A DNA stretch of 64,000 nucleotides from Favolaschia claudopus. Its lineage: Eukaryota; Basidiomycota; Agaricomycetes; Agaricales; Mycenaceae. Positions 1,107-27,172 of this stretch are shown here, piece by piece. A model generated the notes under the pieces. That model was not told the DNA's origin. It was given only the letters and a program-made list of their open reading frames with translations, and made no database searches. The stretch's first letter is position 1. Each line of letters opens with the position of its first letter. The translations under genes and the position numbers were made by a program. The stretch covers positions 186,001 to 250,000 of the forward strand of contig JAWWNJ010000185.1 of the NCBI GenBank assembly GCA_037176885.1. Reading direction: 5' to 3'.

Positions 1107-2916
1107 TGAAACGGTGCGTGTAGGTGTAGGCGTGAAATATACCGAAATATAAAATCACAAAATCTAATCCAATACGACGTGTGTGTGTGTGTGTTCGGGG
1201 TGGCGGGAGCACGTATCGTCCCTCAGAATACTTGTGCAAGCTTCAATCAATCAAGGTCGCTACGTTTGAGCGGGACGAACTACTAGATTGTCTAGCGAGA
1301 ACGTAGCGGGCAAAACGATTCGCAGCGGGAGAAGCGAAGAGTCACTCTTTCTGAGACTTCGAAATGAGAAATTCTGAGTCTAGCGGGGAGGGTCTCCGTG
1401 CCAATAGAAAAGCGTCGCCCGGTAGTGGATCGTCAACCGGCAAGAAGCTTTCTGGATGACAACCGGCGGGCAGAAGGCGCGGCTCAGCGGGACGGGGTTC
1501 TTATACGACCGGCGCGGCTCTGGCGAGAAGCGGGGCTCTTATGTCGATGGCGCGGACACTAACAGTGACCCGGGCAGTTACACCACTACGCGGCGGCGAG
1601 CTCGAACGGGGGTCTTGGTTATACCGCGGAACGGCTGGCACACGGGGCGTCGACGGCGCGGAATCAAGCTCGAACGGGGGTCTTGGTTATACCGCGGAAC
1701 AGCAAGAAACGGGGCTTCGTATTTCAGGAGGGCTCGGGCTCAAAGGCTGGCGGGGCTCTCAAAGTTCTGGCGGCTCGGTATGCCACAAGTCTTTCCGTAT
1801 CACTCGAGTCTCTCTCAGATATCAAGTCTAGTCTCTTTCAAAGTTCAATTCAAATTCTAGAGTCCGCTACAAACTGCCCTTGTCTACGGGTAGGTAATTG
1901 ACTGAGTAACAAAAAGTACACCGGGAGATTAAATACATGCAGCGGGAGCAGAAACAACCAAATAAAATCATGATGAGAGAGTGTCCAAGTTTGATGCCGC
2001 GCCCGCTGGGAACCAATGGTATATTCAGGATTGCGAGTCGTGAGTGAAAAGACTGCTTCCCGGAGAAAGTCCATGCGGGCGGGTGGGTATTGCGCCTTAT
2101 TGCAGTGCAATGGCGTGCTGGTTGCCATGTCCCCGGGAGGGGACACGAAATTCCTCCTTCATAATATGGTCCTGCCGCTGGTCGAGTTGAAGTCGAAAAG
2201 GCTTCCCGCTGAGTAGTTAGTCAACGGCTCGATAGCGGTCAAGTTCATCTCGTCTTCTATCTTCAGAACAGTCTAAGTTCCAGGGAAAATAGGGAGAGCC
2301 GAGTCGCGTTAGCGGCTCGCCACTCGCCGTTCGGGTTGTCCGCAATCAGCGGGAAATGCCCCCAGCAACTCGCCATGTCCTTCTCATCATTCTGACAGAG
2401 CCGTTGGCTGGATAGCCGCTGGCTCCGAGGTGCTCCCGCTGGCAGTCGGTTAAGTCCCGGCTGTCCGTAATCAGCCGGCGTGCTCGGATAGAGCCTGCCG
2501 GTGATCCTGTTCGTCGGTAGAGTGGCGGCCGTCCTGAATTCGAAGTTGAACTCAGTATGGTCCCCCGCTAGATCTTCTTCATGTTGGTCGGCGGGTGAAC
2601 GCCTAACCTCAGGGAGGTTGGTAGTTCCTCTTAGTCGCCTCCAGCACCTCGAGATAGTAGTTTCCCACTAAGTCCCTTGGCCCGGCAGTTTAGAAATAGT
2701 CAGCGGCAGAGTCTCGCACCCATGTTTAGGGAAACGTCGCTAAGCCGCTGCTACCCGTTGGTGTCCCGCCAGCTTGTCGGCTATCCACAGCAATAAGATA
2801 CTGCCCGCGAGGACGGGCATATCTTCTATTATCCTAGCCTCACTTCTCCCGCTGATAGGTCTCGAAAATCGATAAATTCCGGGCATTTCATGCCTAGCCG
2901 CTGAGCGGCCCTATCA
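1107..2916 (-). repeat. 3' LTR (1,810 bp)
   Basis: This copy matches 19712-21521 at a constant offset of 18,605 with no indel noticed. It contains a GT microsatellite near 1181, a 34-bp direct repeat (1599-1632 and 1667-1700, period 68), and about 13 copies of AGCGGG/CCCGCT in mixed orientation plus several AGCGGC variants. Open frames inside it are short and look non-coding. Confidence 0.95.
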
Positions 2917-2929
2917 TCTCCCCCTTTCT
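2917..2929 (-). other. Polypurine tract
   Basis: On the minus strand AGAAAGGGGGAGA directly abuts the TG that starts the 3' LTR, the expected plus-strand priming site. A closely similar tract with conserved downstream sequence recurs at 10533-10572. Confidence 0.8.
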
Positions 2930-3612
2930 AGATTTCAACTCTCCCGAGTTGACGACTTGGGATCGCCCGCTAGAGATCTTATCCATCTTCCGGGGAAGGG
3001 GACTTCAAGACAAAACTTTGCCTTGGAATAATTCATAGATAACGAACGGGCCGCCAGTGAGGCCCGGTTCCCGCTCGTCCCCTTTGGTATTTCATGAGAG
3101 AAAACCTTAACGAAAGACTCGTGGCGACCTAATTTTAGATTCCCACTCTACTTCCGTCGACAGCTTCTCGCCTTAACTTCTCGCCGCGGCCGGCGATGCC
3201 GTCATTTTCATTATGAGGCGTCACCATTGCCATTTTGGGAAGTACATCAATATAAGAAGCACTAGGGTCGAACTCTAACCCTGCGCTCTCTAAGGCCGTC
3301 GTATGTGGTCGCAATCTGGAATGGTTTGGATCAAAGAAGCCGCAGCGACCCCCCGCTTCTCTATTCAAATATTTCTCATGAAAATTTTCCAGAGAATCCC
3401 ATCAAACATTCAAACTCCGACCTCGAAAGGTATAAAGACTCGAGAGGTTTCTGGGTGGATTCCCCACCGATTCCCTGATTGGGCACCCCCTTGCCTTCTT
3501 CCCTCTGGCCCTCTTCATTCTATCTTTCTGCCCGGCGACGATTCTAAGTGCCTTGCACGGGGGATCACCTTCCAGCTCCCTGCGGTCCATTTCGTGACGT
3601 CCCACCCGCGAG
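2930..3612 (+). promoter_or_regulatory. Promoter/leader region of antisense gene A
   Basis: No gene is seen here. TATA-like boxes occur at 3251-3256 (TATAAGAAGCA context) and 3431-3437 (TATAAAG), the latter 176 bp before the ATG at 3613. The 3251 box context recurs at 10752 before gene C, so the two promoters look related. An ATG at 3303 opens a 127-codon frame that overlaps gene A in another frame; I regard it as an upstream frame rather than a gene. Confidence 0.45.
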
Positions 3613-6600
3613 ATGGAAGACGACAAGAAGACTCCCCGCCCTCGCCCGTCTGCTTCAGCCGCTCGTCCGGGTTCTCGTACCTCTAAGGCGTCCACCCGGG
3701 CTGTCTCTCCTTCCGTCTCCAACCCTGCCCCAGCGAGGACTCCCGCTGTTGCACCGTCGACGGCGTCGTCTTCCAAAGCCAAGACCAACCAGTCGCCGGT
3801 CAACTTGACCGAACGGATCGACTTCTGGTCTGCCTGGCGGGACAAGCCCAACAAGTTCAAGGCGGCGAAGAAACTCATCACCCCCGGCGTTGCAGACCAG
3901 ATGAAGCCCGAAGAAGTCAAGATTCTGATACGCAGCTTGGATAGCGAACTGGTGAGCCCCGCTATATTTTCTAGCGTCTTAGCTTCTCTAAAGAACCCTT
4001 AACAGAGAATCCACCGGGCGGGCCTCAATTTTGCCCGCGGGAGCGAAGAGTCTGTTCCTCCATACGCTACCGCCCTCTCGTACTATCTCGGCCGGCAGCT
4101 CAAGCGCATCGATCCCCAGCACGATCACCCGGAACTCTGGGGTCTGGCTTTGAGCAAGCCCGAGATGGAAAAGCTAAAGGCAAGCCGTATTCTTTTATTT
4201 CTTTCGCCGGCTACCGACTGACTTAGTCATTCAGCTCGCGCGGCCCCCCGAGCCAACGAAGGATGTGGCCAATTTCAGCCTCCCTGGTCGCCCGCCACCG
4301 CTGAGGCCTGAGGAGTTTAGACCGCTCAAGTCCCCGGTAAGTGACGACCCCGCGCTATTCCCTTTCTAATCGAGACTCATTCTTTAAAGAAGGGGACCGG
4401 TTCCGCCTCCGCAGCAGGCAAGTCGTCGAACCCCGCTGACGACAAGCCGAAGGGTCGCGACAAAGCCGCCGCGGGCTCCTCCAAGAAAGGCAAGAGCGGC
4501 GGCAAGCCTGCTGCCGACTCTGAGCAGCCCAGCAAGCCGGCCGCGCAGCCTAAAGTACGACTTCCCGCTGACCATCTTGGCTTTCGCTGATCCTCGTTCG
4601 TCTAGGACGAGGCCAAGCCGCGGGAACAGAAGCCATTCCCGAATTTCAAGAAGCTCGTAAGCTCGTTCTTTTTCTATCAAGTCTCTCCCCGCTAAGCTGC
4701 CTTGCCTTGTATCAGACCGACCAGCCCGCCGCCGAGGGCTCTAACCGAGTCCAAGTCATCAAGCGCAAAGTAACCGTCCCCGCCGACTCGCCTCTCGCCG
4801 CGTCCAGCGGTTCAAAACGCAAGGCATCCACCAACGCCGAAACTTCGCCGGCGAAGAAGATCAAGGAGGAGAAAGTGAAGGCGCCCGCCAGGCAGGAGGT
4901 AGTAGTTACCCGCTGTTGCCCCAAGTGTAAGGCCGACATAGAGTTGACTATAAATTTTTCGTAGACCCCCTCCATCGAATACGTTTCCGAATCCGAGGTG
5001 AAAGCCTCCAAGAAGCCCATCGTCTGTGAGTTATCCCTTTTGATTCTTCAAGTACGATCGAGCCGCTTAAACTATCTTTCTAGTAATCACAACGAAACCC
5101 CCGCCGACTGCCAAGGCTTCGACTTCAAAACCAACTCCCCGGGATCCGCACGAAGACGTCGCTATTGACGAAGTTCCTTCGATGCGGTACATCGTGCCCG
5201 ATTATTCCCATCGAATGATTCTCAGGAATCTGGGAATCAACCCGGTGAGCGGCTTTTATTCCTGTTCTGTCGAATTTCTCCGGTGAGACTGACTTCCCGC
5301 AGAGCCCACCGACCATCAAGAAGTCGAAGGAGGAGTTCAACATCCCCAGCAAGGAACTCTTCAGGAAGTTCCTCACCGGGTACCCTCACCCAGCGAGACG
5401 CCGGGACCTCCCAATCGACCCCGAGCAGGGCCTTTTTGCGTTGAGCTCCGACGGCTTCGTCTCGACGATGGAGCTCTTTCAAGCCCAGGTAAAGTTGAAC
5501 TCATCGGGCGACATCTTGTACTGATCATCCTGGCATAGTACGGCCCCCGCTGCATCCGTTGCATTCATAATGGTTCGGAATGCAAAGTCTCCGGCTTCCC
5601 CTCTGAGTGCACGGCCTGCGCCAGCCACAAGTCCAAGAAGGACTGCACATTCTTGGCTACCGGCGAGGAGTTGAGCCTTATGGGAACCGAGCTCAAGGAA
5701 TGGGTTTTCATGACTCGCCCGGGTAAGTTCTAGTTCTTTCGTATTTATTTCTTGCCCGCTAACCAGTTCAACAGAATGGTAAGACTTGAACGAGGACGTC
5801 AATCAGGCCAGCGCGACAGTCTTCGCCATCCAGAACTCGCTCGAGGCCGCCTATGTTCAACTGCGCCGGAAGATGTTCAAGATGCTTCACGCCATCCTGG
5901 TCACCCGCGGCCAAGTCAACTACGACGACTTCGTCGCTCGTTTCGACGGGGAGTCCTACGAGGAGAAGCAGAAGCACATGGAAATCATGCTCAGGATTGC
6001 CATGACCCAAGGGCTTCACGCCGGCTCGGACATCAACGAGGTTCGGGCCTGGCAATTCTTCCCTATGGAACTGCTGGACGAAGCGGACATCCCGATCTTT
6101 GATACCGCGTACAACTTCTACAAGGCTTACGACGCGAACGAGCGGGCTGCTCCGCTGGGATTCTTCTTGATCCCCTCCGACCCGGATGACGAACGCCCGC
6201 CGCAATGGGTGGAGGTCGAGGTAAGAAATCTTTCTAACTTTTTCATTCCCGCTCGCACTGAACTGTTTCTGATAGCCGGAAGACTGCTTCCACCTCCTGT
6301 TCGACGAGGAGGGCGTTGTAGGCTCATCGACCGGTCCCGACGGCTCGCTAGTTCGAGCTCGCGTTCAGGCTCGCGGCGACGGTCCCGAAGACTTGGACCC
6401 GCACGACTTCGATGGGAACCCCACGCCTTACAGCGCGAAGCACCGGAACGTTCCTGGCTTCTTCCGCGAATTGTACGCCCGGGGGAAATTTACTGTGTTG
6501 CCCGACGAGTCGGAGGTTAAGAAACCTAAACCTTCCCGCTCGCGTCGAAACGCAGGAAATTCGAAGAAGTCGAAGGTCAAGTCTGACCCGGTGGTGCACG

Positions 6601-7115
6601 AGGACGAGGACGCTCCCGAGGACGAGTTCCGCCCGCCCCCTTCTCCAACCGAGGAGGAGTCGGCCGACGACGGCCCACGCGATCGTAAGTCCTCCATCTT
6701 TCTTATTCTCTTTTCGAGCTCTAAGTCTGTTTCTCCCGCCACAGCGATGGACCTTGGTTCCCGCCCGCCAACGCCTGAGCCCAGAGCTCAATCCAAAGGC
6801 AAAGGCCGCGCAGCCGAGCCAATCGCCGACGACTACGCCAGCGACGCGGGGGAAGCCGAGGTGGGTGCTCCCGACCTACTGCAGGAGGACTTTTTGGCTC
6901 AAGCTTTTGCCTTCGAGGAGGTATCCAGCGGCGAGGAATCGGGCGAAGAGGGCAGCGAAGAGGAGGTCGCCGACAGCGTTCAAGAGCAGGTGGACGACCC
7001 TGACGCGTCGGACACCATGTCGGTCGAGGCCGGGGAAATCGAAGATGTCGACGCAGCGGGTGAGCTGGACGATACCGTCCATGCTCACATCTTCGACTTC
7101 GACGACTACGCGTGA
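3613..7115 (+). CDS. Cargo gene A: 940-aa acidic protein with Zn2Cys6-spaced cysteine cluster
   Basis: Thirteen exons: 3613-3951, 4006-4179, 4235-4336, 4390-4554, 4606-4656, 4716-4898, 4965-5025, 5084-5244, 5303-5488, 5539-5722, 5784-6220, 6276-6684, 6745-7115. The joined frame is 2,823 nt. Introns are 50-66 nt; intron 2 is GC-AG and intron 10 has an unusual AAG acceptor. The N-terminal half is rich in Lys, Pro, Ser and Ala. Exon 10 encodes Cys 479, 482, 489, 498, 501 and 510, spaced C-x2-C-x6-C-x8-C-x2-C-x8-C. This fits the fungal binuclear-zinc pattern, though the first loop is not very basic. A helical region (about 535-680) and long Asp/Glu-rich tracts follow. It lies inside the retrotransposon, antisense to gag-pol. 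No homologue is recognised; function unknown. Confidence 0.75.
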
Positions 7116-7902
7116 GCCGGTAAGTTCGACTTGAACCCTTTCTTTATTCCTCTGCTAACTCTCAACTCCAGACTTTCCTCGTGGGTGGGCGGGCGGCAAG
7201 TAAGCACTTGCCCTAGTTCTCGCTGTACCCGGCTCCCACTGACTTCTTTCTCAGAAATATTTTCTGTATTCATAATCGCGGGGGCCGAGCGGCCCCCAAA
7301 ATCATCAAAAGCTACGGGCACGGGTCCCATAACCCCGCTGGTTGCGAACGGTCATGGCCTGGTGGAATTCCACCCGCCATGACCCCCAAATAAAAATAAA
7401 TTGCCCCATAGTAGTAGAGCATCGTGTACCGGCCAAAGAGCCGATGAAACTAAAATTAAAAGCTTTTACGATGCTCTCTTTTCATGTGTGATCCAACTTC
7501 TAAGTTCTGTCTGAGTTCCAAAGTCAGAGTCCCCGGCTAGAGCCTCTATGTGATTTGTAAGAGTCTGAAGCGAGAGAATCTGGCTAAGTGCTGCGCCCGT
7601 CGGCCGAGTACGCCTTAGAGAGCGAGCTGGACGTTGAACTTTCGAGTTTTTCAACATGCCGAGCGGCAACGGTGCTCATCACCGGGGTTCATCAGATAGC
7701 GGGGGTTGCCCGCGGCATCTCATCCAACTGTCAGCGGCTGTCCTCGGACTCCACCGGGTGACTAGTTCCTCATTTCTCCCGTTGGTCTCGTAAGGGTGAT
7801 AACGTAGAGTAGAACTGGCCCGGCGGCCCGAGCCGCCCGCTACCGTACTTGTAGTCGATAGGGGTAGATAGCCAATCAAACCATCTTTTTCCTTCAATTG
7901 CC
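7116..7902 (+). other. Intergenic of cargo region (gene A 3' end to gene B1)
   Basis: Contains a perfect 7-bp-stem hairpin at 7280-7297 (GGGGGCC, loop GAGC, GGCCCCC), AATAAA-like sequence near 7388-7400, and a 10-bp inverted repeat AGAGCATCGT (7416-7425) / ACGATGCTCT (7468-7477). Several AGCGGG-type motifs occur. Plausibly the gene A terminator followed by the B1 promoter; no gene is seen. Confidence 0.4.
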
Positions 7903-8645
7903 ATGCCTCAGCCCGTAGGTGAAGTCTTAATCGACTACCATTTCTTCCCGGTGGTCAGTCAAGGCTTTGTGCGCAAGATCTATACCGTGGTAGGCTGTCC
8001 TCGACACATTTCTGCGCCAAGTCCAACCAGCCGCTAGCCGGATCTCGTCTGCACGCCTTGTAGTGACGCCGGCGAAGACTGTGAATTTCTTCACTGGGGC
8101 TCAAAGTGCACTCGGTGCCGGGAGGCGAAGGTTCCCAAATGCTTGTTCACCGGGGTGGATTGGTTCAAATATACCTATCCGTCTTCAGCCTTTCCGACAC
8201 TTTTCATCTATCGCAGCGGTAAGTCCTGCCGCTCTTCGAATTCTCATCTTTCTTATTCTATTCAGGCGGCACGTTGTACGACCTTGCATTCCTCGAACTC
8301 TGGTACCACTTGCGCCTCGGCGGCTTAAGCCCCGATATGTTTATAGGCTCGGTGGACGGTGAGCCCGCTGACTTCTTGCGTCGGCGGGAGGAATTTGCTG
8401 GCGACCTTCGTGACTGGGACATTGCTCACGACCTAAACCACGCCGCTCACTCCAGCCGGCGGCTGTATTTCTACAACATCCTATCTCGAGTTTTACGCGA
8501 GTGGCGTACCCAGGATCGCTCGATCCACGCCCAGTGCGACGTCGACGCGGCTATCCTGCTCCATGATATCAGGCGACGGGACTCTAATGTTCCGACCGTC
8601 GTGCCCTTGGCCCAAGGCACGCGCCGCCAGACCTTCGAGCGGTAA
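7903..8645 (+). CDS. Cargo gene B1: 215-aa cysteine-cluster protein
   Basis: Three exons, 7903-7989, 8038-8218 and 8266-8645 (648 nt joined), with introns of 48 and 47 nt. Exon 2 starts in phase 0, ends in phase 1, is 181 nt long, and encodes Cys 34, 37, 44, 53, 56 and 64 (C-x2-C-x6-C-x8-C-x2-C-x7-C), including a Trp-Gly pair before the fourth Cys. Exon 3 encodes a likely helical domain rich in Leu, Tyr, Trp and Arg. Intron positions and phases match B2 and B3, so the three are tandem paralogues despite low overall identity. Start chosen as the first ATG giving a continuous frame into the cluster. Function unknown; zinc binding is inferred from spacing only. Confidence 0.7.
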
Positions 8646-8817
8646 CCCAGGCTAGTAGCTTTTCCCCGTTAGGGTCAAATAAATCTCTTTGCCCGGTCGC
8701 AAGCCGTTATCGTGATGTCTGATTCCTTCTGAGCTTTTGGTCCGGCAGCCGGTGGTACTCACCCGTCGGCTATAGGTTTTACTTATAGCGGCCGGTGCCC
8801 AGTGAGTCCTTCAAGCG

Positions 8818-9489
8818 ATGCCCGCCTTTTCTTTGGCAGCGACTTTTTACTCAGAACGCTTTAGGAGCTTCACCGGTCCCTCAGAGTACCAGCTCGTACT
8901 TCAAGCTCAATTTGTGGGTCTTTCGTTCTTTCCTGGTGCTCTCCCGCTGACGGGTGCCTCTTCTTAGCCGGAGTACGAATGCCAGTGCTGCCTCAAGAAC
9001 TACCGCCATTGCATCTGGATTCAGTGGGGTGAAGCCTGCCTCAGCTGCATGTTCATAGGCCGCGCCGCCTTGTGCTGCTACACCAAGAAGTCCGTCTGGC
9101 AGGCCGAGAACAGCCGTCGTCGCGACACTCTCCTAGCCTCTCGGCCAGGTAAGTCTGCTTTCTATCTTTTTACCGCTCAGCGGGGGTCTTAGTGAATTTT
9201 AGCTCCTTCCGCCGGACGGATCGCTCAGTTTGACTGGTACGCCCGGGCTGCCGGTGCCCGACTCGACGAGAAGAGGTACATCGACGTGCGTACTTGCACC
9301 ATCCTCGCCGCCAGATCCATGCTCGGCACCCTTGGGTTTGGCCAGCTACGCTTCTTGTACGGACTGTGGTTTGACGCGAAGGGGGCGGGCGTACGAAAGG
9401 AAATTGTAGATCTCCTCCGGGATAGGTTAGACGCTGTAGCCCTCCAGTCCGGCGCAAGGCTCCCGCCCGTTATGTTCATCGGGCCGTAA
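8818..9489 (+). CDS. Cargo gene B2: 187-aa cysteine-cluster protein
   Basis: Three exons, 8818-8913, 8968-9148 and 9203-9489 (564 nt joined). The 181-nt exon 2 begins with a Pro-Glu-Tyr-Glu lead-in to Cys 37, 40, 47, 56, 59 and 68 (C-x2-C-x6-C-x8-C-x2-C-x8-C, with extra Cys at 39 and 69). Both introns (54 nt each) contain an AGCGGG/CCCGCT motif. The C-terminal exon is predicted helical. Paralogue of B1 and B3 by exon structure. No enzymatic motif is seen. Confidence 0.7.
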
Positions 9490-9772
9490 GCGTAGTAGGA
9501 AATATATTCCCACTGTCAAACGAACTTGCATCTTTAAAACTCTGTTTCAAGCTGCCCGATTAGGAAGGCTTCTTAGAAACCAAAGCTTCCTCGTGTTTTT
9601 GCCCAGCGGGGGCTCAGCACCTCGTTGGATATTCCACATGTATTGCGGATCTCCCGGGAGCGTCGGGTGCAATGAGTCCCGCTGTCGATCTCTCTGTTTT
9701 TGGGTCTCCCGCCAGGTCTCAGAGAGATATTTAAGCTGGCGGGAAGGTCCCATTTGCTTCAGTCGTCTACTC

Positions 9773-10401
9773 ATGTCTTTGCTGGAACATCCACTCTTTC
9801 CGAATGACCCCGTCGGCCCGCTCAGGGAGTACTATGTACGTTCCTGAACATTTTGCCTCGGGTAATTCCTCATCATTCGGCAGCCTGGCCGGGTATGCTC
9901 TGCGTGCCTCAACGCCCGTTCTCATTGCGAGTTTACTGAGTGGGGAGCGCCGTGCACCCGCTGTTACTTGCTGAAGCACAACTGCTCGTACACCCAGACC
10001 GCTGAGCTGGCCGATGAAATTGCTGCCCGCCGGCACCGTTTCAAAGAGGGTCCCGATCGTAAGTGACGACTTCTTTCTTATCTGTTGCGCCACAACTGAT
10101 TCCCCGCTCGCTTCTAGCGGCTACGAAGGAACAGCTAGCTGCTTGGGACGTCCTTCATGAGGGGACCCTGGCGCAGTTCCCATTCTGGCAACAATACCAT
10201 TCTGTAATCGTCGGGCGGAACGTCGCAGAGGCAGCCCAACGGCTGTCTTTTTACTTCGAGGCCCGCTTGGTTTTCCATCTTCTTCAGGAGGCCAAAACGG
10301 CTAATCTCCCGGCTGCGTATGTTGCTGTTATCCGCGAGCGGTTAGACGTTCTCGCCAATAATCTTTTCCTGGATCTTCCGGCTAGGATGCGGGCAGTGTA
10401 G
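9773..10401 (+). CDS. Cargo gene B3: 173-aa cysteine-cluster protein
   Basis: Three exons, 9773-9835, 9884-10058 and 10118-10401 (522 nt joined), introns 48 and 59 nt. Exon 2 (175 nt, phase 0 in, phase 1 out) encodes Cys 26, 29, 36, 45, 48 and 55, spaced C-x2-C-x6-C-x8-C-x2-C-x6-C, with the same Trp-Gly before the fourth Cys as in B1. A TATA-like GATATTTAA lies about 47 bp before the ATG. Exon 3 encodes an alpha-helical-looking domain. Third member of the tandem B family; function unknown. Confidence 0.7.
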
Positions 10402-10820
10402 ATACAGGCACATGTACTTTCGGATAGTTCGTTCCGATAACACACGCTCCCGCCCCATGTGAGGCCTTGGAAACATTTATTTCTTGGTAAAGATGTGCCC
10501 GCTGCCCTCAAATGACGTGCTAGGTGACCCACCTCTCCCCCTTTCAGAAATCTCAACTGTCCCCAGTTGATCGATCAGAGGAAATTCAGGTTCCCCGGCA
10601 GCAAATTTTTGTGCCACGGAACGATCGGGTGCGTTTGAAATAATTTTCTGCGCCACCGGCGGGTGCATCTACCATAAATGGTAATCCAAGTTCGGCCGTT
10701 GACCAAATTTCGTCCAAATTATCCTTACGGCGTTAATTACGGCCGCTCGAGTATAAGAAGCAGCGGGCGGACAGGTATACCCCCAGCCTCGTCTACTGTC
10801 TTTACTCTGCTTCCTCCAAA
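10402..10820 (+). promoter_or_regulatory. Promoter region of gene C with a second polypurine-like tract
   Basis: No gene is seen. 10533-10572 resembles the LTR-adjacent segment at 2917-2955: shared CTCCCCCTTTC, then a TCAACT...AGTTGA inverted pair. A TATAAGAAGCAG box at 10752 matches the context at 3251 and lies 69 bp before the gene C ATG. Gene C's promoter thus looks like a copy of the region beside the 3' LTR. Confidence 0.5.
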
Positions 10821-12061
10821 ATGTCTCAAAACGATTACAACACCGTCAAAGCCGATTTCCTCAAGGCTATGGACGTTGCCGCCAACCTCGTCAAGTATTC
10901 GCCGCCCGAGTCTCGTAAAAACCAGCTCAAGGACGTCGCCGAGATTCTCGTAAGAGCCGCCGGCTACATTGACCAGTCTCGTTTTGTTAACATTATTCTT
11001 TCGTTCGTAGGCGCGCCTTCCCCCGCTCATGCCTTTCATTTTGGAAGACAAGAGCGCGGTTCTTCGTGAGGCAATCTTCACCTCGCGTGAATATTACCAC
11101 TCCTTGTACGACCCGGATGGTAAACGGGACGTGACCTTCCCCGCTGGGTACGATGCCCTGCGGCGGATCACCAAGGCCATTCACGAAGACCGTTCCAAGA
11201 AGGCGATCCCGCCCGTCTCCACCGTTTCTTCTTCCAAGGGGACCCGGGTCGGTTTCACTAACTTTTATTGTCGTGCTCACCATTGACTCACAATCATCCC
11301 CCGCTAGAAGAGTACTCGCGGGCGGTCCCAGGGTGAACCTGAGTCTGAGGACGAGGACGAAGGCACCGTTCGTGCCCCATCGCCCGCTCTCACCACCCTT
11401 GGTGCTGACGAGGTTCGTTCTTTCGTTTAACAGCTGGCCTGTGTAGAGCTGACGATTGACACTTCTATCATCGCCGTTGGGTGTTTGTTCACCCAGATGC
11501 TCGTTGACGATGAGCATCTCCCCGCTCCCAAGGCTCCCCCTACCGGTCCCAAGGCTAAATCAGCCATGGCGGGCAAGAAGGGTGCGCGCGCTGTAAGTTG
11601 CACGTTATTTCTGCTTTAGCTTCTGTCATTCATTTCAATCTTTCAGCATAGCCCAGCCCCCGCTAAGAAGGGCAAAGGCAACAAGCGCGCTCGCATCGAC
11701 AACGTCCCGTTCCACGAGGACTCCTTCCTCACCAACGGTGAGTTTCCCGTCCATTGTCAGTGGTTTCCCGCTGAATGTTATTACAGCAACGGCTGAGTTT
11801 TACGCTTCGGCACCCGCTTCAGGTGCTGTTGTCGATGAGGCCGCTAGCGTCGTCGAGATGGGTACCGAGTTCATGAGCAACCACCTTGCCTTGCGCAAGC
11901 GGATGTATTTCATCATGGTCGAGCTGGCGGTCATCCACGAGAACCTTCGTAGCTCTCTGGCCCGGCGCGAGCAGCTCCTCGATGAAGGAGAGAAGATCTC
12001 GGCTCGCCTTCGCGACTTCCCCGAGTCCTCCTCTGCCGGCGTCGATGCTCATGTTCCCTGA
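10821..12061 (+). CDS. Cargo gene C: ~316-aa protein with helical C-terminus
   Basis: Best model: exons 10821-10949, 11011-11247, 11308-11367, 11434-11592, 11647-11737, 11787-12061 (951 nt, 316 aa). An alternative joins 11308-11412 to 11497-11592 (310 aa); both use a GTTCGT donor and keep frame, so the third intron is uncertain. The N-terminal part is globular-looking. The middle is rich in Lys, Ala, Pro, Gly and Glu/Asp with basic clusters that could act as nuclear localisation signals. The last ~70 residues look like an amphipathic helix or coiled coil. It lacks the cysteine cluster of A and B1-B3. It ends 222 bp from the end of pol, tail to tail. Function unknown. Confidence 0.6.
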
Positions 12062-12283
12062 CTCGTTCCTAAAGAGCTCCCCCAGCGGGTCCCCCTTTCT
12101 TCAGAATCCTCGGTACTGGCTCAATCGTTTCGGACACCTCACGGCTCATCCTTCTGCTGGCCGCCACACACTCCCCGGGTGCGCAACCTGTTCGCAGCGT
12201 ACTGGCGGGAGATGCAGACAATACAATTACTCAAGGACTTCGAATCCCGTTTCAAAATGTAACGTAGATATCGTAGCAGTAAT

Positions 12284-15200
12284 TCATTTCCGCGCAGCGG
12301 CTTTCGTGGCAGAACGAGTCTTCCGTTTGAAAGGCAGCGGCTCATCCGTGTCAGGTTCCTCTTCCTCTTCTTCTTCCTCGGGCAAGGCCTCCTGCAGAGC
12401 CGGCTCTTCGTCAGCCGTCCCGCTGGGGGTTAACCTCACATTCCCGAATTGGAAGTCATCTCCAGAATAACCGTCTTCCTCCTGGACCATCTTTTCTAGC
12501 GTCTCTGCCGAGAGGTCGATTAAGTCGTGAATGTCAGCGGGCAGCTTGATAGAGCGCCGCTGCTCGAAGGGGACCACTCTGAACTGAGCAATCTTCGATT
12601 GAAAGACAGAGCCGTCCATCTCCGCTACGATATAACTTCCACCTTTCGTACGCCGGATGATAATTACTGGTCCCAGGTATCTGGCGGCCATCTTCGTATT
12701 CAGCGATTTCTCAACGGTCGTATTCCTGATGAGCACCAAGTCTCCCGGCTCGAAATGGTAATCTTCGATAGTATGTTTATGCGCTATCTCGTACCGGCGC
12801 AGATTCGCTCGTTTCTCGTCGGTGACCCGTTCCCTCATCTGTTCGACGTGAGTGGCGTGCTTAGCCAGAGCCTGGGCTCGATAGCCGATTAACTCAGCGG
12901 TCGTTAGAGTCCTGCCGGGCAGATGCACTAGCCAAGTCGCTTCTTCTATATCCAGCGGGAGGATTGGATGTGCGCCCGTTACCATAAAGTAGGGTGAACA
13001 ACCCGTTCCTCGTCGAATAGTGACCCGGTCAGCCCACAACATCTGCGGGAAGAACCAGTACCACTTGCTGGGATTCCCGCCAGTGGCTTTCCATAAGGAT
13101 TGCCTCATCGAGAAGTGCCCATTTTCGACTTTCCCGTTGGCTTGAGAATTATACGGCGAAACTCTAATATTTCTTATGCCGTATTTAGACTCAAGGTAGG
13201 CCACGGCCGCTAGGAAGGCCGGCGCATTATCTGTCACCAGTTCCTCCGGGCAACCCCACCTACAAATCACATCTTCAAGTAAGAACAAGGCCAGCGTTCT
13301 GGCATTCTCGTTCTTTATCGGCCGCGCTTCTATGTAGCTGCTGAGAGAGCAGCGGGCGTCGACAATTTTATTGAAGCCGTTGGAAGGAGTACCAACGACC
13401 ATCACGTCGACGTGTACCACTTGGAAGAGCGAAGGGGTATGAGTGACAACGGGCGGGATCTTTAATAGAGTCCTTTGCCTCAATTGACACAATTCGCAAG
13501 TCTTAATGTACCAAGTGACATCCCGCTCCATCTCAGGCCACCAGAAGCGCATTTCTATCAAGGATTTGGTAGCAAAGACGCCGCGATGAGCTAGGCTATC
13601 ATGAGCCGCCCGCATCATATACATTCGGTGTTCTTTGTCCACCACCAACTGATGTGCGCTCCCCGTTGTGGATTTATGATAGAGTTTTCCATCTGCATCC
13701 TCGAAGAAGCCGGTGGCGAATCGCAGGAAGGCTTTATATTCTTTGTCGTTCATGCCATCCGGGCGAGCCAGGGTGTTCCGCCGCCATTCCTTCATGAGGA
13801 GCAGCCGCTCGTCCGCTAGCTTCGCCGCTACCGATCGTTGGTCTTCAGAATACGGTTCCCGCTTCGTCGGGTCGTACTTCAATTCGAGGTCAGGGATCAG
13901 CGGCTCGCCTGCTGGCTTGTCGTCCCCCTTTGACTGAGAGAAGACCTCGAAAATGTATTCTTTACTAAGGCGGGTGTAAGCCCACGCCTGTTCAGCGTCG
14001 TTTTCGAAGTCAGAGGCTGACTGAGCCTCATCTCCCGCCAATTCAGCTACCATATATCCACCTCGGGTGTCAATATCGTGCTTGAAATCCTCGAAATTCT
14101 TGAGAGGCGGCCAAGCACTACTTTCAGGATGAAGACCCGGCGGCTCGTTATTATCGAACTCGTCTTCTGGGTGATCATACTCTGGATCCCCCGGCTGAAT
14201 ACGCCGGCGGGAGAGTCCATCTGGCCCGAAAGTCTTGCCCGGTACATGCTTCAGAGTGAAATGAAACATTAAGATCTCCTCGATCCAGCGGTTGATCGTA
14301 GCGTTGGGTCCCATTCCCGGGTGATCCAACATGCCTTTGAGGTACTGAGCGTCGGTCTCGACGACCAGCTTACGGCAGCCCAACAGCCAGTATTGCATGT
14401 GGTCTAGCGCCCTCTTCAAGCCAAACAATTCCCGCTTGGGCTGAGAATACCTCGACTCCCGTTCATTCAAAGGTATGGAGCTGAAGCGGGCATAGTACCG
14501 CTTATTTAGGTCCAAAGGATCCCGCTGGTACACATGCACTCCAACTCCAAGGTACGACGTATCAACCGCCAGCACCACTTCGGTGTCCCATTCATATCTT
14601 ATAGGTCTAAGCGCGGGACATTCTCGCAAAGCCTTCTTCAAAACTTTCATGCAGGCGTCTTGGGGCGGGCCCCACTCGAATATGACTTCTTTCCGGGTGA
14701 GCTTCTGAATTGGTTCAGCTTTGACCGTGTAGTCTTGGATGAACATCCTCATAACGCCCACAGTTCCCAGAAAGGCTTTCACATCGTGGAAATCCTTCAG
14801 CGGGCCCCAACGCTCAATGACGCCGATTCTATCTTCATCCGGGCGCATGCCCTCGTATGAGCAGACATGGCCGACCACCTTAAAGGTTCCCCGGCAAATC
14901 TGCAACTTCTTCCCGCTTACAGTCGCCCCAGAATAGGCTAGCCGGGTAAGTACCCGGTTGCAGTCTACCAAGTGTAACCACACAAAGACCCTTATCAGCG
15001 GGTTCTCAGGGATGGTCTCGTACGTCCCGTCAGGCTTTTCGTATCGAGTGAAGCCGCCGGCGACAGGCACGTCATCTATATACGGCCGGGTAACCGCAGG
15101 AATTTCGTCTCGCAGGATGTAGGTTACGTCTTCGTGGAAGATCGGCACAGAGTTGGTCCAACCCTGCGGCAATCTTACCAATCGAAGCGCCCCAAACGGA

Positions 15201-16372
15201 GTTTGGAAGGTCGTGTAATCTCGAGATTCCGGGTCAATCAGCCGGTGGTTGTACCCAGAATAAAGATCAAACGTGGACCCACAAGCCCTTCCTGCGAAAT
15301 GTTCGGCTAGATCCGCGGCGCCGGGAGGCACCCCAGAGTGCGCGATGGTTACCGCGTTCAGCGGCTCCAACGAATGCACTAACCGAATTGACTTCTTATC
15401 ACTCTTCAGAACTCCAAAGTACTTCGTGCGGTACGAGCCGTTGGATGGTTCGTAGATATTGGCGTCGATACTCGCCCTAAGCACCTTGCAGACTTCTTCC
15501 AGTTGTCCCGGCGGGATGGGAATATTTCTTTCCACCCAGACCTTATGGTCTGCTTTCACCGGGAACTTGACTGGCGGGAAGAAATCCGTCCTGAAAGTTC
15601 CTCGTTCACTGTCATCCCATGCTACTGTATTTTCGTGTATAGATAACATGTGATGAACCAGCTTCATCTCTTCATCATTCAGGAACCCATCATTATGCAG
15701 TTCGTCCACTACCGCTTTCCTTTCCGCTGTGTACCTCCCTACGGGAACGAACTCTGGCGGGTGAGGGTCTAGCGGGACGAGATTCTGCAGCGGATCCCCA
15801 ATGATATTTCTTTCTATCCTGAACTCGGGAGGGAGCGGCTCGAGGACCGGCTTTACTTTCAGCGCTACCGGCTTATATTTCTTCGAGAACACCTCCTTCA
15901 CCTCGACTTCAGGCGGGTGATCCTCGGGAACGATTTCCTCCATCAACACCACTTTCGTTTCGTTGTGTTCGAACCCGGGCACCACCCAGTCGGCGTAGTC
16001 ACAGCACTGACAGCGCTCCCCTGCTGAATGCCGAGACCGCTCCTGTTTGAGCGACTCAACATCGGCACCGGCTGTCATGAACACAGCGGCTGGGTCCTTC
16101 AGTTTCTCTCTGACTTTATCCGTTATATTAGCTACGATGGCTACATAGGATTCGCCGACGTTCTTTCCTTCTGTCAGCTGCTCATTATATTCCTGAAATA
16201 GCTGAGCAGCGGGTTTGTCATCAACTTCTGGCATGGCAGCCGCTAGGTAGGCCATTTTCGTCTCGGCCATTGAAAACCCCTCTTCTCCAGATTTCATCAA
16301 AGCGCAAATTCTAGGAACATTATTCTCGTCCAGTTCTATCTGAACCGCTAACTCTCCTTGATGGTTAATCAA
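12284..16372 (-). CDS. pol: Pol: reverse transcriptase, RNase H, integrase
   Basis: A 1,362-codon open frame. An N-terminal linker (1-~210) contains CQCC at 121-124. RT follows, with FDL at 368-370 and the YIDD active site at 431-434. RNase H acidic residues lie near D603, E648, D674 and D718. The integrase zinc module has H924, H929, C959 and C962, and the DDE triad falls at about D989, D1048 and E1083. A GPY/F-like segment lies near 1250, and the C-terminus has a run of glutamates. No chromodomain is seen. The frame begins with TTG, not ATG, and lies -1 to the protease frame with a slippery heptamer in the overlap, so it is probably made as a frameshift fusion. No stops or gaps: potentially active. 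Confidence 0.93.
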   Translation of the reverse strand: MINHQGELAVQIELDENNVPRICALMKSGEEGFSMAETKMAYLAAAMPEVDDKPAAQLFQEYNEQLTEGKNVGESYVAIVANITDKVREKLKDPAAVFMTAGADVESLKQERSRHSAGERCQCCDYADWVVPGFEHNETKVVLMEEIVPEDHPPEVEVKEVFSKKYKPVALKVKPVLEPLPPEFRIERNIIGDPLQNLVPLDPHPPEFVPVGRYTAERKAVVDELHNDGFLNDEEMKLVHHMLSIHENTVAWDDSERGTFRTDFFPPVKFPVKADHKVWVERNIPIPPGQLEEVCKVLRASIDANIYEPSNGSYRTKYFGVLKSDKKSIRLVHSLEPLNAVTIAHSGVPPGAADLAEHFAGRACGSTFDLYSGYNHRLIDPESRDYTTFQTPFGALRLVRLPQGWTNSVPIFHEDVTYILRDEIPAVTRPYIDDVPVAGGFTRYEKPDGTYETIPENPLIRVFVWLHLVDCNRVLTRLAYSGATVSGKKLQICRGTFKVVGHVCSYEGMRPDEDRIGVIERWGPLKDFHDVKAFLGTVGVMRMFIQDYTVKAEPIQKLTRKEVIFEWGPPQDACMKVLKKALRECPALRPIRYEWDTEVVLAVDTSYLGVGVHVYQRDPLDLNKRYYARFSSIPLNERESRYSQPKRELFGLKRALDHMQYWLLGCRKLVVETDAQYLKGMLDHPGMGPNATINRWIEEILMFHFTLKHVPGKTFGPDGLSRRRIQPGDPEYDHPEDEFDNNEPPGLHPESSAWPPLKNFEDFKHDIDTRGGYMVAELAGDEAQSASDFENDAEQAWAYTRLSKEYIFEVFSQSKGDDKPAGEPLIPDLELKYDPTKREPYSEDQRSVAAKLADERLLLMKEWRRNTLARPDGMNDKEYKAFLRFATGFFEDADGKLYHKSTTGSAHQLVVDKEHRMYMMRAAHDSLAHRGVFATKSLIEMRFWWPEMERDVTWYIKTCELCQLRQRTLLKIPPVVTHTPSLFQVVHVDVMVVGTPSNGFNKIVDARCSLSSYIEARPIKNENARTLALFLLEDVICRWGCPEELVTDNAPAFLAAVAYLESKYGIRNIRVSPYNSQANGKVENGHFSMRQSLWKATGGNPSKWYWFFPQMLWADRVTIRRGTGCSPYFMVTGAHPILPLDIEEATWLVHLPGRTLTTAELIGYRAQALAKHATHVEQMRERVTDEKRANLRRYEIAHKHTIEDYHFEPGDLVLIRNTTVEKSLNTKMAARYLGPVIIIRRTKGGSYIVAEMDGSVFQSKIAQFRVVPFEQRRSIKLPADIHDLIDLSAETLEKMVQEEDGYSGDDFQFGNVRLTPSGTADEEPALQEALPEEEEEEEEPDTDEPLPFKRKTRSATKAAARK

Positions 16373-17355
16373 CTCCTCGAATTCTGAAAATTTTGTTCCT
16401 CTTCGCCACTCGCCTGCGCAGCCGGTGGCGCATCATTTTGAACGCGCCGTACCTGCCGCCGCTGACCCCTGGGGAAGGTAGGGACGACCACCCGCTTCGA
16501 AGTGGAGGGGTCGGTCAGAGTCAGGAACTGGTTCCCGTCAGAAGTATTTTTGATACCGCTGGCGGTCAGAATTTCGAAGGGCCGCCCCAGCAGCACTTTG
16601 TATGCCGGGTTCCGTATAACATGCACTTGTAGGTACACTGTCATATCGCCGAACCTGAAGGGGACGTTCCTCGCTAACCCGACTGACTTTTCGGTTTGCC
16701 CGTTGGCGCTCATCATGTGGATACAGTTATCGGGGTCCCAGCTGACTCCTAGCTCGGTGGCTACCGACAGGGCCATGGACACGATCTGTGATCCACCATC
16801 CAGAATGCATTCTACTTCGGCGGCTCCATGAATGAGCGGGAAGACCACTCTCAGGGCCGCTGATTCTCCAGCAGAAGCTTCGGAGATCGCGACGAAGATT
16901 TCTCTCACCGGCTCACCATCGGCTACCGACTGCCAATATTGCACTGCCGGGTCGACAGTGATGAGAGCTCCCGCTGGCATGAGTCCATCGGCCACAGTTG
17001 AGACCTGAACTAATGCTTCGTAAGGGAGGTCCTCCAAGGCTACGCTGGAGGACTCATCATCTTCGTCGGCTTCTTTCTCTGCGTGGCTAATCAATTGCTC
17101 GAGGGTGACTCGAACAGCGGGCGAGACTCTCTTCTTCGAGAGCAACGCCTTAGCCTGACGCAGCAACTTCGGGCTGAGGGCGAACAACCTCCCCAGCGGG
17201 AGCGCTATTTCCAGGCTTCCAAAGATCTCCTTTATCAAGGATTCGACCTCCTCATCTTCCTGGTCCTCTACGGGCGCCTTCAACTCGTAGTTCTTTTCGT
17301 TGGCCGCTGGCGGCGCATTTCCCGCCGGCCGAACTCTAGGTTCGTTGGGCCTTTA
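16369..17355 (-). CDS. Protease-coding frame (retropepsin-like)
   Basis: The frame is open from just after a stop near 17355 to the stop at 16369-16371; it has no early ATG. It contains a retropepsin-type active site LDGGSQ (Asp-Gly-Gly-Ser, where DTGS or DSGS is usual) and a downstream LLGRPF flap/second motif, about 100 residues apart as in retroviral-type aspartic proteases. It would cut the Gag-Pol polyprotein. Its N-terminal part is acidic. It is -1 relative to the preceding linker frame, with a ~75-bp overlap. Confidence 0.8.
16387..16393 (-). promoter_or_regulatory. Candidate -1 frameshift slippery site, PR to Pol
   Basis: In the protease frame the minus strand reads CAA AAT TTT CAG, containing A AAT TTT, which fits the X XXY YYZ rule for -1 slippage. 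It lies about 16 bases before the protease stop, and the Pol frame is exactly -1 and open through this point. Confidence 0.6.
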
Positions 17356-17617: not shown

Positions 17618-19549
17618 CTAAAAATGCTCACCTTCGACGCTGTTCCCCGTTCGGGAAGGACCAGCCCCGTTGGAAGAGCGAGAGTTCGCTGAGACAGCCG
17701 CCAGCAGAATCGCAACAGCGTTGGCGTCGAATTGCGGCGGGGGAGATTGGCTTTGATGAGCCACAAGGGGTGGTTGAACACCCCCTGAACCATGCGACTG
17801 GAGTTGCGTCACTTGCCGCTGGAGGTTTACTTGCTCAGCTCGCAAGGAAACCAATTCTTCTTCTCTCGGGTCATAGTAGAATTCCTCGTTCTGGCTGAAC
17901 GCGGCTTGCGCGGCTTCCAGCTCCTGCTCGTCCATGTCAAGAACGGAGAGCTGAGCGAAGACAGACTGGTAGTTTTGCGCAGCGGCCGTGGGTTGGGCGG
18001 CCGGGCGGTACTCCTCTACCTGCTGCTTCTTGGACTTGTGCCCGTCTTTCGGGATTGGTATCCCATCGGGGAAACAGTCTCTGAACCCTACGACCTTCAT
18101 CTTTCCACTCCCTATGTGGGCTTGCCGGATGAGACACTTGTCTCTAAAATGCCCAAACTTGTCGCAATATAGACACCCCTGATCCGCCAGGTTCCCTTTG
18201 AATTGCACGGTTGGCATTCGCGGGAAAGACTGGGAGTCAGCGGCGCCTGGGACTCTGCCCGGTAGGGACTTATAGAAGGACTCTAATTCGGCCATCCTCT
18301 TCTTGGTCGCGGCGTCGATCTCTTTTAATTGGGAGGTCTGGTTATCCAGCCGCTCCATCATAGTGACGACCGACACCTTAATCGTCTCAAGAAGGGACTT
18401 GTTAGGGTCCTCTTCCTCTTTCTTTACCGTCACGTTTGGGTGAGGTAGTATGGATCGCCCGCTCGACGCCTTTCCAGACCCGCTGGAGGCCTTGGACTTG
18501 CTCGAGTAACCCCGGTCCGAGGCGCCAAAGAACTCAGAGTTAGCGGTCGAGCGTTTTGCGATCCTTTTGGCTTCAATCATGACCTCGGCCAGCGTCCATG
18601 TGCGGACCTCTGGCTCGTCAGCATCATCCCCGGCAGCGGGAGGTTTCCGCTCGAGGTTCTCCAGAATCCGTTCCTTGAACTCAGGACTCAATTTGGAGAA
18701 GAACATCGGGAGAGCCTCCCGGTGCGAAATTAATTTCGAATCGAGAAGCTTGTTCGCCTCGACGTTCATGACGCGCATTAGGCGCATGAGTTCGTCTTCA
18801 TCGTCCCGGTCGATCCCCTCTTCCGTGAACTTACGAAGCTGCCGGTGCAATTTCTGCACAGAGCCCTTCTTTTGGTCGACTACGGACGGGTAATTTTCCA
18901 GGATTTCTTTCTTAAAGTCGTCGAACTTCTTAGAATACGAGGCGAATTGCCGCCACTCCTCGGCGGTTGCCTGAGCAGTATAGCGGCAGACAAACTCGTT
19001 CTTCTTATCATCCGGCGTCTCATCTAATTCCATCATACGCTCCACATGGTCCAGGAAACGAACAAGCTCCTCCGGCTCTTCCTCTTTGAAGAGCGGGGCG
19101 TTCCTGTCCCATGGTTCCGGCGCGCGCTTCTTTCCTCGAACGACAGGGTTGTTGTTGCCGTCGTCAGCCATCGGATTATTTGAAGGGGTTGGTGAAGTGT
19201 TGAGTAGTGGTGAAGAGACAGACGAAAGAGTCGTTGACGACTGGGTAGCTGCACCGTCGGGCGTAACAGGTCTTGTGCCGGGCGGTTGAGTTGAGGTTTG
19301 TTGTTCCAGCGGAGCAGAGGGGCTCAACGACTGGGTTTGGCGGGTACGATAAGCGTGAGCTTGGGTTCGTCCGCGCAGAGAATAGAGTTCCCGGGCAAGA
19401 GCAACAGGCGGGCGGGAAGGATCGTCAGTCTCGAGATCGAGAGCAGCGGCAGCGGCACGTAGGCTAGTGTTGGTTGACCGAGGTTTTGGTGGTGGTGCTC
19501 TAGCGGATCGTCCTTCTGAAGCCACGTCTCCTCCGAAACTAAATGGCAA
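17618..19549 (-). CDS. gag: Gag capsid-nucleocapsid polyprotein
   Basis: 643 codons from ATG at 19549, 162 bp inside the 5' LTR. The N-terminal ~130 residues are low-complexity Ser/Thr/Pro. Residues ~145-305 form a retrotransposon Gag capsid domain (the APLF...ELVRFLDHVE start and helical repeats are typical of basidiomycete Gypsy Gag). A CCHC zinc knuckle lies at C459, C462, H467 and C472. The C-terminus is Gln-rich. It packages the genomic RNA. The frame is intact. Confidence 0.92.
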   Translation of the reverse strand: MPFSFGGDVASEGRSARAPPPKPRSTNTSLRAAAAALDLETDDPSRPPVALARELYSLRGRTQAHAYRTRQTQSLSPSAPLEQQTSTQPPGTRPVTPDGAATQSSTTLSSVSSPLLNTSPTPSNNPMADDGNNNPVVRGKKRAPEPWDRNAPLFKEEEPEELVRFLDHVERMMELDETPDDKKNEFVCRYTAQATAEEWRQFASYSKKFDDFKKEILENYPSVVDQKKGSVQKLHRQLRKFTEEGIDRDDEDELMRLMRVMNVEANKLLDSKLISHREALPMFFSKLSPEFKERILENLERKPPAAGDDADEPEVRTWTLAEVMIEAKRIAKRSTANSEFFGASDRGYSSKSKASSGSGKASSGRSILPHPNVTVKKEEEDPNKSLLETIKVSVVTMMERLDNQTSQLKEIDAATKKRMAELESFYKSLPGRVPGAADSQSFPRMPTVQFKGNLADQGCLYCDKFGHFRDKCLIRQAHIGSGKMKVVGFRDCFPDGIPIPKDGHKSKKQQVEEYRPAAQPTAAAQNYQSVFAQLSVLDMDEQELEAAQAAFSQNEEFYYDPREEELVSLRAEQVNLQRQVTQLQSHGSGGVQPPLVAHQSQSPPPQFDANAVAILLAAVSANSRSSNGAGPSRTGNSVEGEHF

Positions 19550-19691
19550 AATCTTCTATAGCGGGCCTGGAGCTAACGGCTCAACGGGCGGGTGTATATT
19601 CTATTCTCGAGTCAACCGGCGGATGGTTCGTGCTAGGTTATAGCAGCGTCCACAAGCGATTTCTTTCGACTTGACACAAATAATCTGTCAC

Positions 19692-21521: not shown

Positions 21522-21525
21522 CCGT
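21522..21525. repeat. Target-site duplication CCGT (right)
   Basis: This is the partner of 1103-1106. It directly follows the terminal CA of the right LTR. Confidence 0.8.
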
Positions 21526-27164: not shown

Positions 27165-27172
27165 CTCTATGT
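27165..27172. repeat. 8-bp target duplication CTCTATGT (right)
   Basis: Partner of 23020-23027. Confidence 0.75.

Follow-up and report, generated by a model that had tools for sequence, protein, structure and literature searches.

Why would a retrotransposon carry, on the strand opposite to its own genes, a set of five intron-rich genes, and what might their products do for it? The locus that raises this question lies in a 64,000-nucleotide stretch of the genome of Favolaschia claudopus, a wood-rotting mushroom (hereafter the window; C185:186001-250000 of the 264.6-Mb assembly), which holds a 20.4-kb Ty3-type long terminal repeat (LTR) retrotransposon read on the minus strand. Between its pol gene and the polypurine tract (PPT) at its 3′ LTR there is a 9.4-kb block (2917-12283) in which five genes, G1 to G5, are encoded on the plus strand, with 12, 2, 2, 2 and 5 introns, respectively (23 in total). 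We find that this block keeps its position and gene structure in sibling copies, with a pattern of substitutions that points to purifying selection, that three families of elements carry related modules and that the sampled copies of these families differ in the short DNA word they overuse. On balance, we think it probable that the proteins of the module recognize the word of their own family and keep its copies expressed or unsilenced. The five genes are (aa, amino acids):

3613-7115, plus strand: G1, about 942 aa, 12 introns, Zn2Cys6-like exon at 5539-5722
7903-8645, plus strand: G2, 215 aa, 2 introns, Zn2Cys6-like exon at 8038-8218
8818-9489, plus strand: G3, 187 aa, 2 introns, Zn2Cys6-like exon at 8968-9148
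9773-10401, plus strand: G4, 173 aa, 2 introns, Zn2Cys6-like exon at 9884-10058
10821-12061, plus strand: G5, 310 aa, 5 introns, without a Zn cluster

For G1, a deposited F. claudopus protein, P0001 (R3P38DRAFT_3240472), tracks our model to about residue 700, an agreement that spans some 11 introns with one 3-base difference at an acceptor; a segment of P0001 has a 100% match on contig C193. In the protein database, P0001 is the sole match to G1, whether queried with a single sequence or a three-class profile, and a G4 query returned no match at all, while a Pfam scan of the splice-site-corrected G5 model was likewise negative. A preliminary description of the window had credited the genes with clean stops. 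Copies with an intact G1 do exist, but in the window copy G1 is interrupted by a premature stop at 5780-5782 under the splice model backed by P0001 and sibling copies. The donor of one G1 intron is GC. A gene finder with an obligatory branch site missed G1, G2 and G5, and the requirement was then relaxed; models are unreliable for copy L020 and for parts of L018, L019, L021, L015, L016, L033 and L034, from which only the exons of the G1-class comparison entered the counts. Since the module is antisense to gag-pol, its introns survive in the reverse-transcribed genomic RNA, and antisense coding with retained introns is one way for a retroelement to carry multi-intron genes.

The element that houses the module has the following features (ORF, open reading frame; RT, reverse transcriptase):

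1107-21521, minus strand: Ty3-type LTR retrotransposon, Family I copy, 20.4 kb
1103-1106 and 21522-21525: target-site duplication CCGT, 4 bp, flanking both outer LTR ends
1107-2916, minus strand: 3′ LTR, 1810 bp, 13 AGCGGG motifs (1.5 expected)
2917-2932, minus strand: PPT abutting the 3′ LTR, also recovered by a box search at 2918
10535-10568, unstranded: second PPT-like tract with the box AACTGTCCCCAGTT, immediately upstream of G5
12284-16432, minus strand: RT-RNaseH-integrase ORF, 1382 aa, with RVT_1, RT_RNaseH and Integrase_H2C2 in Ty3 order
16369-17352, minus strand: aspartic protease ORF, 327 aa (PF13650, E=8e-6)
17618-19555, minus strand: gag ORF, 645 aa
19712-21521, minus strand: 5′ LTR, 1810 bp, one mismatch to the 3′ LTR

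The LTR termini read TG...CA on the minus strand, and the Ty3/Gypsy order of protease, RT, RNase H and integrase is present. In Pfam, RVT_1 scores 27.9 bits, slightly under its cut-off of 29.6, while the RNase H, H2C2 and PF13650 matches exceed theirs. A Pfam scan of the gag ORF gave no match, and this ORF has a relative (E=1e-9) in an element nested in L020; no relative of pol was found in a scan of viral contigs. With one mismatch across the 1810-bp LTRs, the insertion is young.

Is the block part of the element or a passenger of one copy? We scored 150 of the 1267 candidate places of an integrase search, sorted by identity, and define Family I as 104 integrase loci at 89-99% identity (the count excludes three loci at 75-83%, of which two contain stops and one is also weak). 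G4 exon 3 lies beside the integrase, on the expected side, on the opposite strand and 2.9-4.9 kb away, in at least 85 of these 104 loci, and among the 19 without this pairing at least one, on C144, has an internal deletion. These counts probably span both nuclei, because 86.8% of BUSCO genes are duplicated in the 265-Mbp genome of F. claudopus CIRM-BRFM 2984, as given in excerpts of PMC10905254. When 20 cargo regions were compared, the module was present in 19, one of which (L020) has a nested insertion in G1; the exception, L032 (C144:5991-15990), has lost the DNA from inside G1 to G5 and is a deletion, not an empty state. The preliminary description held that the cargo is integral to the element and not a later insertion, and named other copies as the test. 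Its view is upheld by the recurrence of G4 and by related genes in two other families, on which grounds we rejected a later insertion; the CCGT duplication stands at the outer LTR ends, and no direct repeat of at least 18 bases brackets the block (shorter inner duplications were not searched). The core of L032 is about 100% identical to the window, and this deletion copy was perhaps mobilized in trans. Several copies are equidistant from the starts of their contigs (C19, C66, C121 and C420 at 14061; C64 and C73 at 12255; C13 and C25 at 676), as could arise if the assembly broke at repeats, if paired nuclei are both represented or if copies sit at chromosome ends.

Next, we asked how well the genes are preserved in a set of 20 copies (the window and L013-L031, omitting L032, which bears the deletion, and L033, which is partial). 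G2 is intact in 20/20, G3 in 19/20, G4 in 20/20 and G5 in 18/20, and the ratio of nonsynonymous to synonymous polymorphism (pN/pS) is 0.10, 0.00, 0.02 and 0.09, respectively, in runs where three G1 borders and the G2 end were off by 1-2 bases, as they were in the word-density runs below. The GT-AG borders of the 11 introns of G2-G5 are retained in all 220 copy-by-intron cases. Because G2-G5 are intact in most copies, pN/pS is low and the splice borders are all kept, purifying selection, as judged from these sequences, acts on the antisense proteins during multiplication of the element. Together with the gene models, these values confirm what the preliminary description had reported, a 9.4-kb PPT-bounded block with five opposite-strand genes and 23 introns.

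G1 follows a pattern of its own. In 13 of the 19 sibling copies (L018, L019 and L021-L031), identity to the window is 96-98% in the DNA to the right of G1 and, for the 12 copies with a listed left match, 89-92% in that to its left, while within G1 the DNA of those 13 copies aligns solely around the Zn exon. Scoring 150 of 182 candidates, a G1 exon search yielded 157 matches, and the identities listed for them span 33-100%; for G4 exon 3, the matches listed are at 90-100%, with two longer ones at 83-85%. G1 sequences of classes A-D have ratios of nonsynonymous to synonymous substitution (dN/dS) of 0.10-0.44 across 12 comparisons; at the protein level, the two segments compared are as low as 52% and 46% identical. 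By this sequence pattern, G1 is swapped between copies as a cassette; template switching between co-packaged RNAs would be the likely route.

What kind of proteins does the module encode? The Zn exons of G1-G4 measure 175-184 nt, lie between phase-0 and phase-1 introns and encode six cysteines each, with the spacing of PF00172. The pattern CX2CX6CX8CX2CX6-8C is invariant in 9/9 aligned exon peptides from three families; two of these peptides are classes of a single gene, G1, and the alignment omits the Family II small gene, of whose cluster just the second half is seen in L034. In the six frames of the window, the cysteine pattern occurs four times, each time in a G1-G4 exon, and a WG before Cys4 is common to G2-G4 and two Family III small genes. 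The best Zn_clus score, for the G4 exon alone, is 17.3 bits (E=0.005), and because profile support is weak and under cut-offs we use the label Zn2Cys6-like. Structure prediction for two exon products, run with no alignment, gave a mean predicted confidence (pLDDT) of 61 and 47 and was left unused. G5 shows basic stretches by eye.

Related modules were found in two more families, Family II (27 integrase loci, 67-68% identity) and Family III (16 loci, 60-61%), each represented here by few compared copies (L034 for II; L035, L037 and L038 for III). In all four copies antisense genes, small Zn genes included, follow pol. Counterparts of G5 and G1 were recognized by eye, by position, look and exon phase, the G5 look-alikes being the first gene after pol in both families; tblastn of the Family I proteins on L034 gave weak matches, at best E=0.005. 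A Family III G5 probe lies 2.3-2.5 kb from the integrase at 16/16 loci, and a probe for the Family II small Zn gene lies 3.5-3.65 kb away at 9/27, the other 18 Family II loci being a subgroup that this probe missed. The G1 Zn exon is frame-shifted in L034, which is the C92 copy, but its C8 counterpart is open. More distant relatives at 46-48% identity (29 listed, 3 of them partial) probably represent further families. Finally, at about 1-3200 of L020, a nested LTR element with a diverged gag sits inside G1 of the C188 copy and has a palindromic word of its own, TCCGCGGA (CCGCGG occurs 12 times vs 0.7 after shuffling). This nested element had been tried as a control and was dropped when it proved to be a clan member with its own word, CCGCGGA.

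The candidate target of these proteins is a word that recurs along the element, here counted as observed vs shuffled mean. For AGCGGG/CCCGCT, the 20.4-kb element has 90 occurrences vs 15.8 (SD 4.0), and the remaining 43.6 kb of the window has 13; in 42 kb beside the element, 13 occurrences compare with 18.3 expected, with no overuse. Within the element, 52 words are on the plus and 38 on the minus strand, and all parts share in the excess (LTR, 13 vs 1.5; cargo, 38 vs 7.9; gag-pol, 26 vs 5.4). Cargo density is highest in introns (8.5/kb), followed by intergenic DNA (4.3) and exons (2.9). In pol, 14 words on both strands and in several frames compare with 3.5 in synonymous-codon shuffles, none of 1000 reaching 14, and we therefore rejected protein composition as the source of the word in pol. 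The same test is suggestive for protease and gag, where 10/1000 and 14/1000 shuffles, respectively, reach the observed count, and says little for G1, because part of its exon set (G1, G1b) was out of frame. A tandem-repeat search found no tandem array of the word in the element, where tandem repeats are limited to 24 bp of pol (12356-12379) and an array of three copies within each LTR. As a side observation, the word is found in 11/23 cargo introns, and by eye CCCGCTGAC frequently overlaps their likely branch site, for example at 8914-8967.

Other words mark the other families. The Family II word TCCGCGGAA occurs 16 times vs 0.13 in 8.5 kb of L034, the same stretch being used for choosing it, and 0 times in Families I and III. 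Genome-wide, TTCCGCGGAAG has 498 sites vs 110 for a reversed control; three Family II loci lie on contigs among the places listed for it (to C15), namely C3, C8 and C12, and of these C8 has 9 sites (402080-418123) and C12 has 11 (2642872-2659604), which run along the whole element, gag-pol included. In Family III, RGCTAA (TTAGCY) occurs 13 times vs 2.9 in the 2 kb used for choosing it and, in two held-out stretches of the same copy, 10 times vs 3.0 (1/500 shuffles) and 9 times vs 3.1 (2/500), while AGCGGG occurs in these three stretches 0, 2 and 4 times vs 1.4, 1.2 and 1.5. By 6-mer z-score, Family I alone (cargo, 11.1; gag-pol, 13.2; LTR, 9.7) clearly exceeds control blocks of 10 kb (9.0, 6.8, 6.0 and 6.4) and 2 kb (5.1, 5.6 and 5.1). 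The control value of 9.0 stems from CCTCCG, with a cluster of 17 GCCTCCG sites at 23611-28403, where no gag-pol match was found at E up to 0.05; an overused 6-mer is therefore by itself no proof. A dense family-specific motif thus appears clear for Family I and one Family II subgroup, and weakest for Family III. The second Family II subgroup (C3:2025880 and 17 other loci) may carry another module and word, since its C3 member is without TTCCGCGGAAG.

Two observations concern the surroundings of these parts. A PPT-like tract followed by AACT-TCCC-AGTT occurs at 2918-2950 and again at 10535-10568, with tract and box at 2918/2937 (3′ PPT) and at 10535/10555 (upstream of G5), and like boxes precede the G5 counterparts of Family II (L034rc, 7984/8005) and Family III (L035rc, 1289/1309); the repeated tract and box could function as a promoter element or as a central PPT. 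Outside the element, NB-ARC/TPR-like ORFs were seen by eye on the minus strand at 34355-37088.

How might module and word work together? We propose that this clan of Ty3-type LTR retrotransposons has in the block a resident module with a regulatory role, in which G1-G4 would be Zn2Cys6-like proteins and G5 a charged partner. We infer their expression, from promoters of their own, and their binding to the short word spread through the double-stranded DNA of the element, AGCGGG in Family I. Dense binding would mark the element's own copies and, acting in trans across the whole family, counter host silencing so that they stay open or active; protein set and word would have diverged together between families as putatively matched partners. 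The find would then exceed the first description and comprise a clan whose protein sets and DNA words look matched. Whether the whole clan uses antisense self-recognition, with several Zn-cluster proteins per element reading the family word and protecting or activating copies in trans, with matched protein-word pairs and exchangeable G1 cassettes, as an independently evolved retroelement counterpart of the plant VANDAL/VANC system (see below), seems to us close to evenly balanced.

Several observations weigh against the proposed recognition of the word by the module. Zn_clus matches were found in 4/8 exon peptides, all under the gathering score of 21 bits; in a PDB profile search, HAP1/CYP1 accounts for 4/5 matches, at E 2-4.6 and behind an unrelated protein, and with a wider alignment unrelated proteins rank first. 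In Zn2Cys6 proteins, basic residues between Cys2 and Cys3 are usual and make DNA contact; the G1 and G2 of Family I are without them, while they are present in the Family II G1 exon. As for the words, AGCGGG in cargo exons is mostly not above codon shuffles (only G4 comes near, at 33/1000) and is slightly up in Family II (8 vs 4.8, reached by 19/200 shuffles). The C3 locus, of the probe-missed Family II subgroup, has 0 TTCCGCGGAAG sites, and CGCGGAA occurs 3 times vs 0.4 in the Family I LTR, partly from a short tandem array. The Family III z-score of 4.8 is not above the 2-kb controls, and that of Family II, 9.4, is close to the 10-kb control at 9.0. Lastly, G1 classes A-D diverge to 46-52% identity while the word stays the same.

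This last point also suits a reading in which each family's word is the site of a separate host factor and the cargo has an unrelated role. G1 classes are exchanged with the word unchanged, a 6-mer is overused too in a part of the window that lacks any gag-pol match, and the tie between cargo and word is putative. We nevertheless consider such host-factor sites quite unlikely, because word and module differ together between sampled families and AGCGGG is not overused in the 42 kb beside the element. The module proteins might instead bind DNA or RNA of the element at another stage of its life cycle, to aid nuclear import or packaging, to choose integration sites or to let the element limit its own copy number. 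Passages of PMC7264820 and PMC11963269 treat the antisense or accessory products of plant elements as presumably regulatory or nuclear, and the basic stretches of G5 would fit such a role. The presence of the word on both strands, through LTRs, introns and coding DNA, suits recognition of double-stranded DNA better than packaging of RNA, and we regard this reading as unlikely, though deserving of weight.

Antisense transcription could also be the function in itself, through double-stranded RNA, a role suggested in part of PMC7264820 for plant elements with antisense ORFs; since the proteins are under apparent purifying selection and their splice sites intact, we find it very improbable. From its large size and host-like introns, one might take the block for a cluster of host genes, or for a second mobile element, that landed in a single copy by chance. 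Its recurrence at 85 or more of the 104 loci, with related genes in three families and without a bracketing direct repeat of at least 18 bases, refutes this reading, to which we give next to no credence.

If recognition of the family word by the module's proteins is true, one genome offers several natural protein-word pairs for testing the coevolution of selfish proteins and DNA, and it would help explain how a 20-kb element remains active while present about a hundred times in a 265-Mb assembly. To our knowledge, DNA transposons of plants are the only mobile elements known to counter silencing in a sequence-specific way, and there is a real chance that the F. claudopus clan represents a separate self-recognition system of retroelements.

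How does the module compare with known systems? HBZ of HTLV-type retroviruses is a regulatory protein coded antisense near the 3′ LTR, and we know of no family word for it; it is a single gene of another type, in contrast to the five-gene module. Antisense genes of HTLV are mentioned in the text seen of PMC11963269. Fungal DNA transposons with TET/JBP share with the module a gene that may counter silencing, but they are Class II elements and the gene encodes an enzyme, with no dispersed word mentioned in the excerpted text of PMC12730594. Fungal Zn(2)-Cys(6) proteins (PF00172) have the same cysteine order, although the G1-G4 exons fall under the Pfam cut-off. Listings of open-licence papers showed no fungal LTR element that carries spliced antisense genes as a set.

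Two plant systems come nearer. The Retand/Grande/RIRE2 elements are likewise of Ty3 type, with a long region between pol and 3′ LTR that holds antisense ORFs, and the sections consulted of PMC11963269 and PMC7264820 describe predicted DNA-binding or nuclear proteins and family-specific repeats there. According to the same sections, the antisense product is usually TRP28 (57/104 antisense ORFs), and the TRP28 domain (PF04195) has no Pfam match in G1-G4 or G5. The word "intron" is absent from both main texts, whereas the F. claudopus module has five spliced genes; about half of Retand elements have tandem arrays between pol and 3′ LTR, whereas the F. claudopus element has none there and differs further in its Zn2Cys6-like exons and in a dispersed word that also occurs in LTRs and gag-pol. 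With VANDAL and its VANC proteins, as portrayed in portions of PMC5735166, it shares a dense family motif, variation of motif and protein from family to family, fast evolution and motifs in introns. In VANDAL, the protein of each family reads the dense motif of that family and lowers DNA methylation. VANDAL, however, is a DNA transposon of MuDR/MULE type, while the F. claudopus element has LTRs, RT and integrase; VANC is a different protein, and VANDAL motifs form tandem repeats in noncoding DNA, in contrast to a word that is dispersed, coding DNA included, and whose binding and anti-silencing role would here be only presumed. Since it is no DNA transposon and has neither TRP28 nor tandem arrays of its word, the F. 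claudopus element is a member of neither system. By this comparison, VANDAL/VANC appears closest to it in working and the Retand group closest in anatomy.

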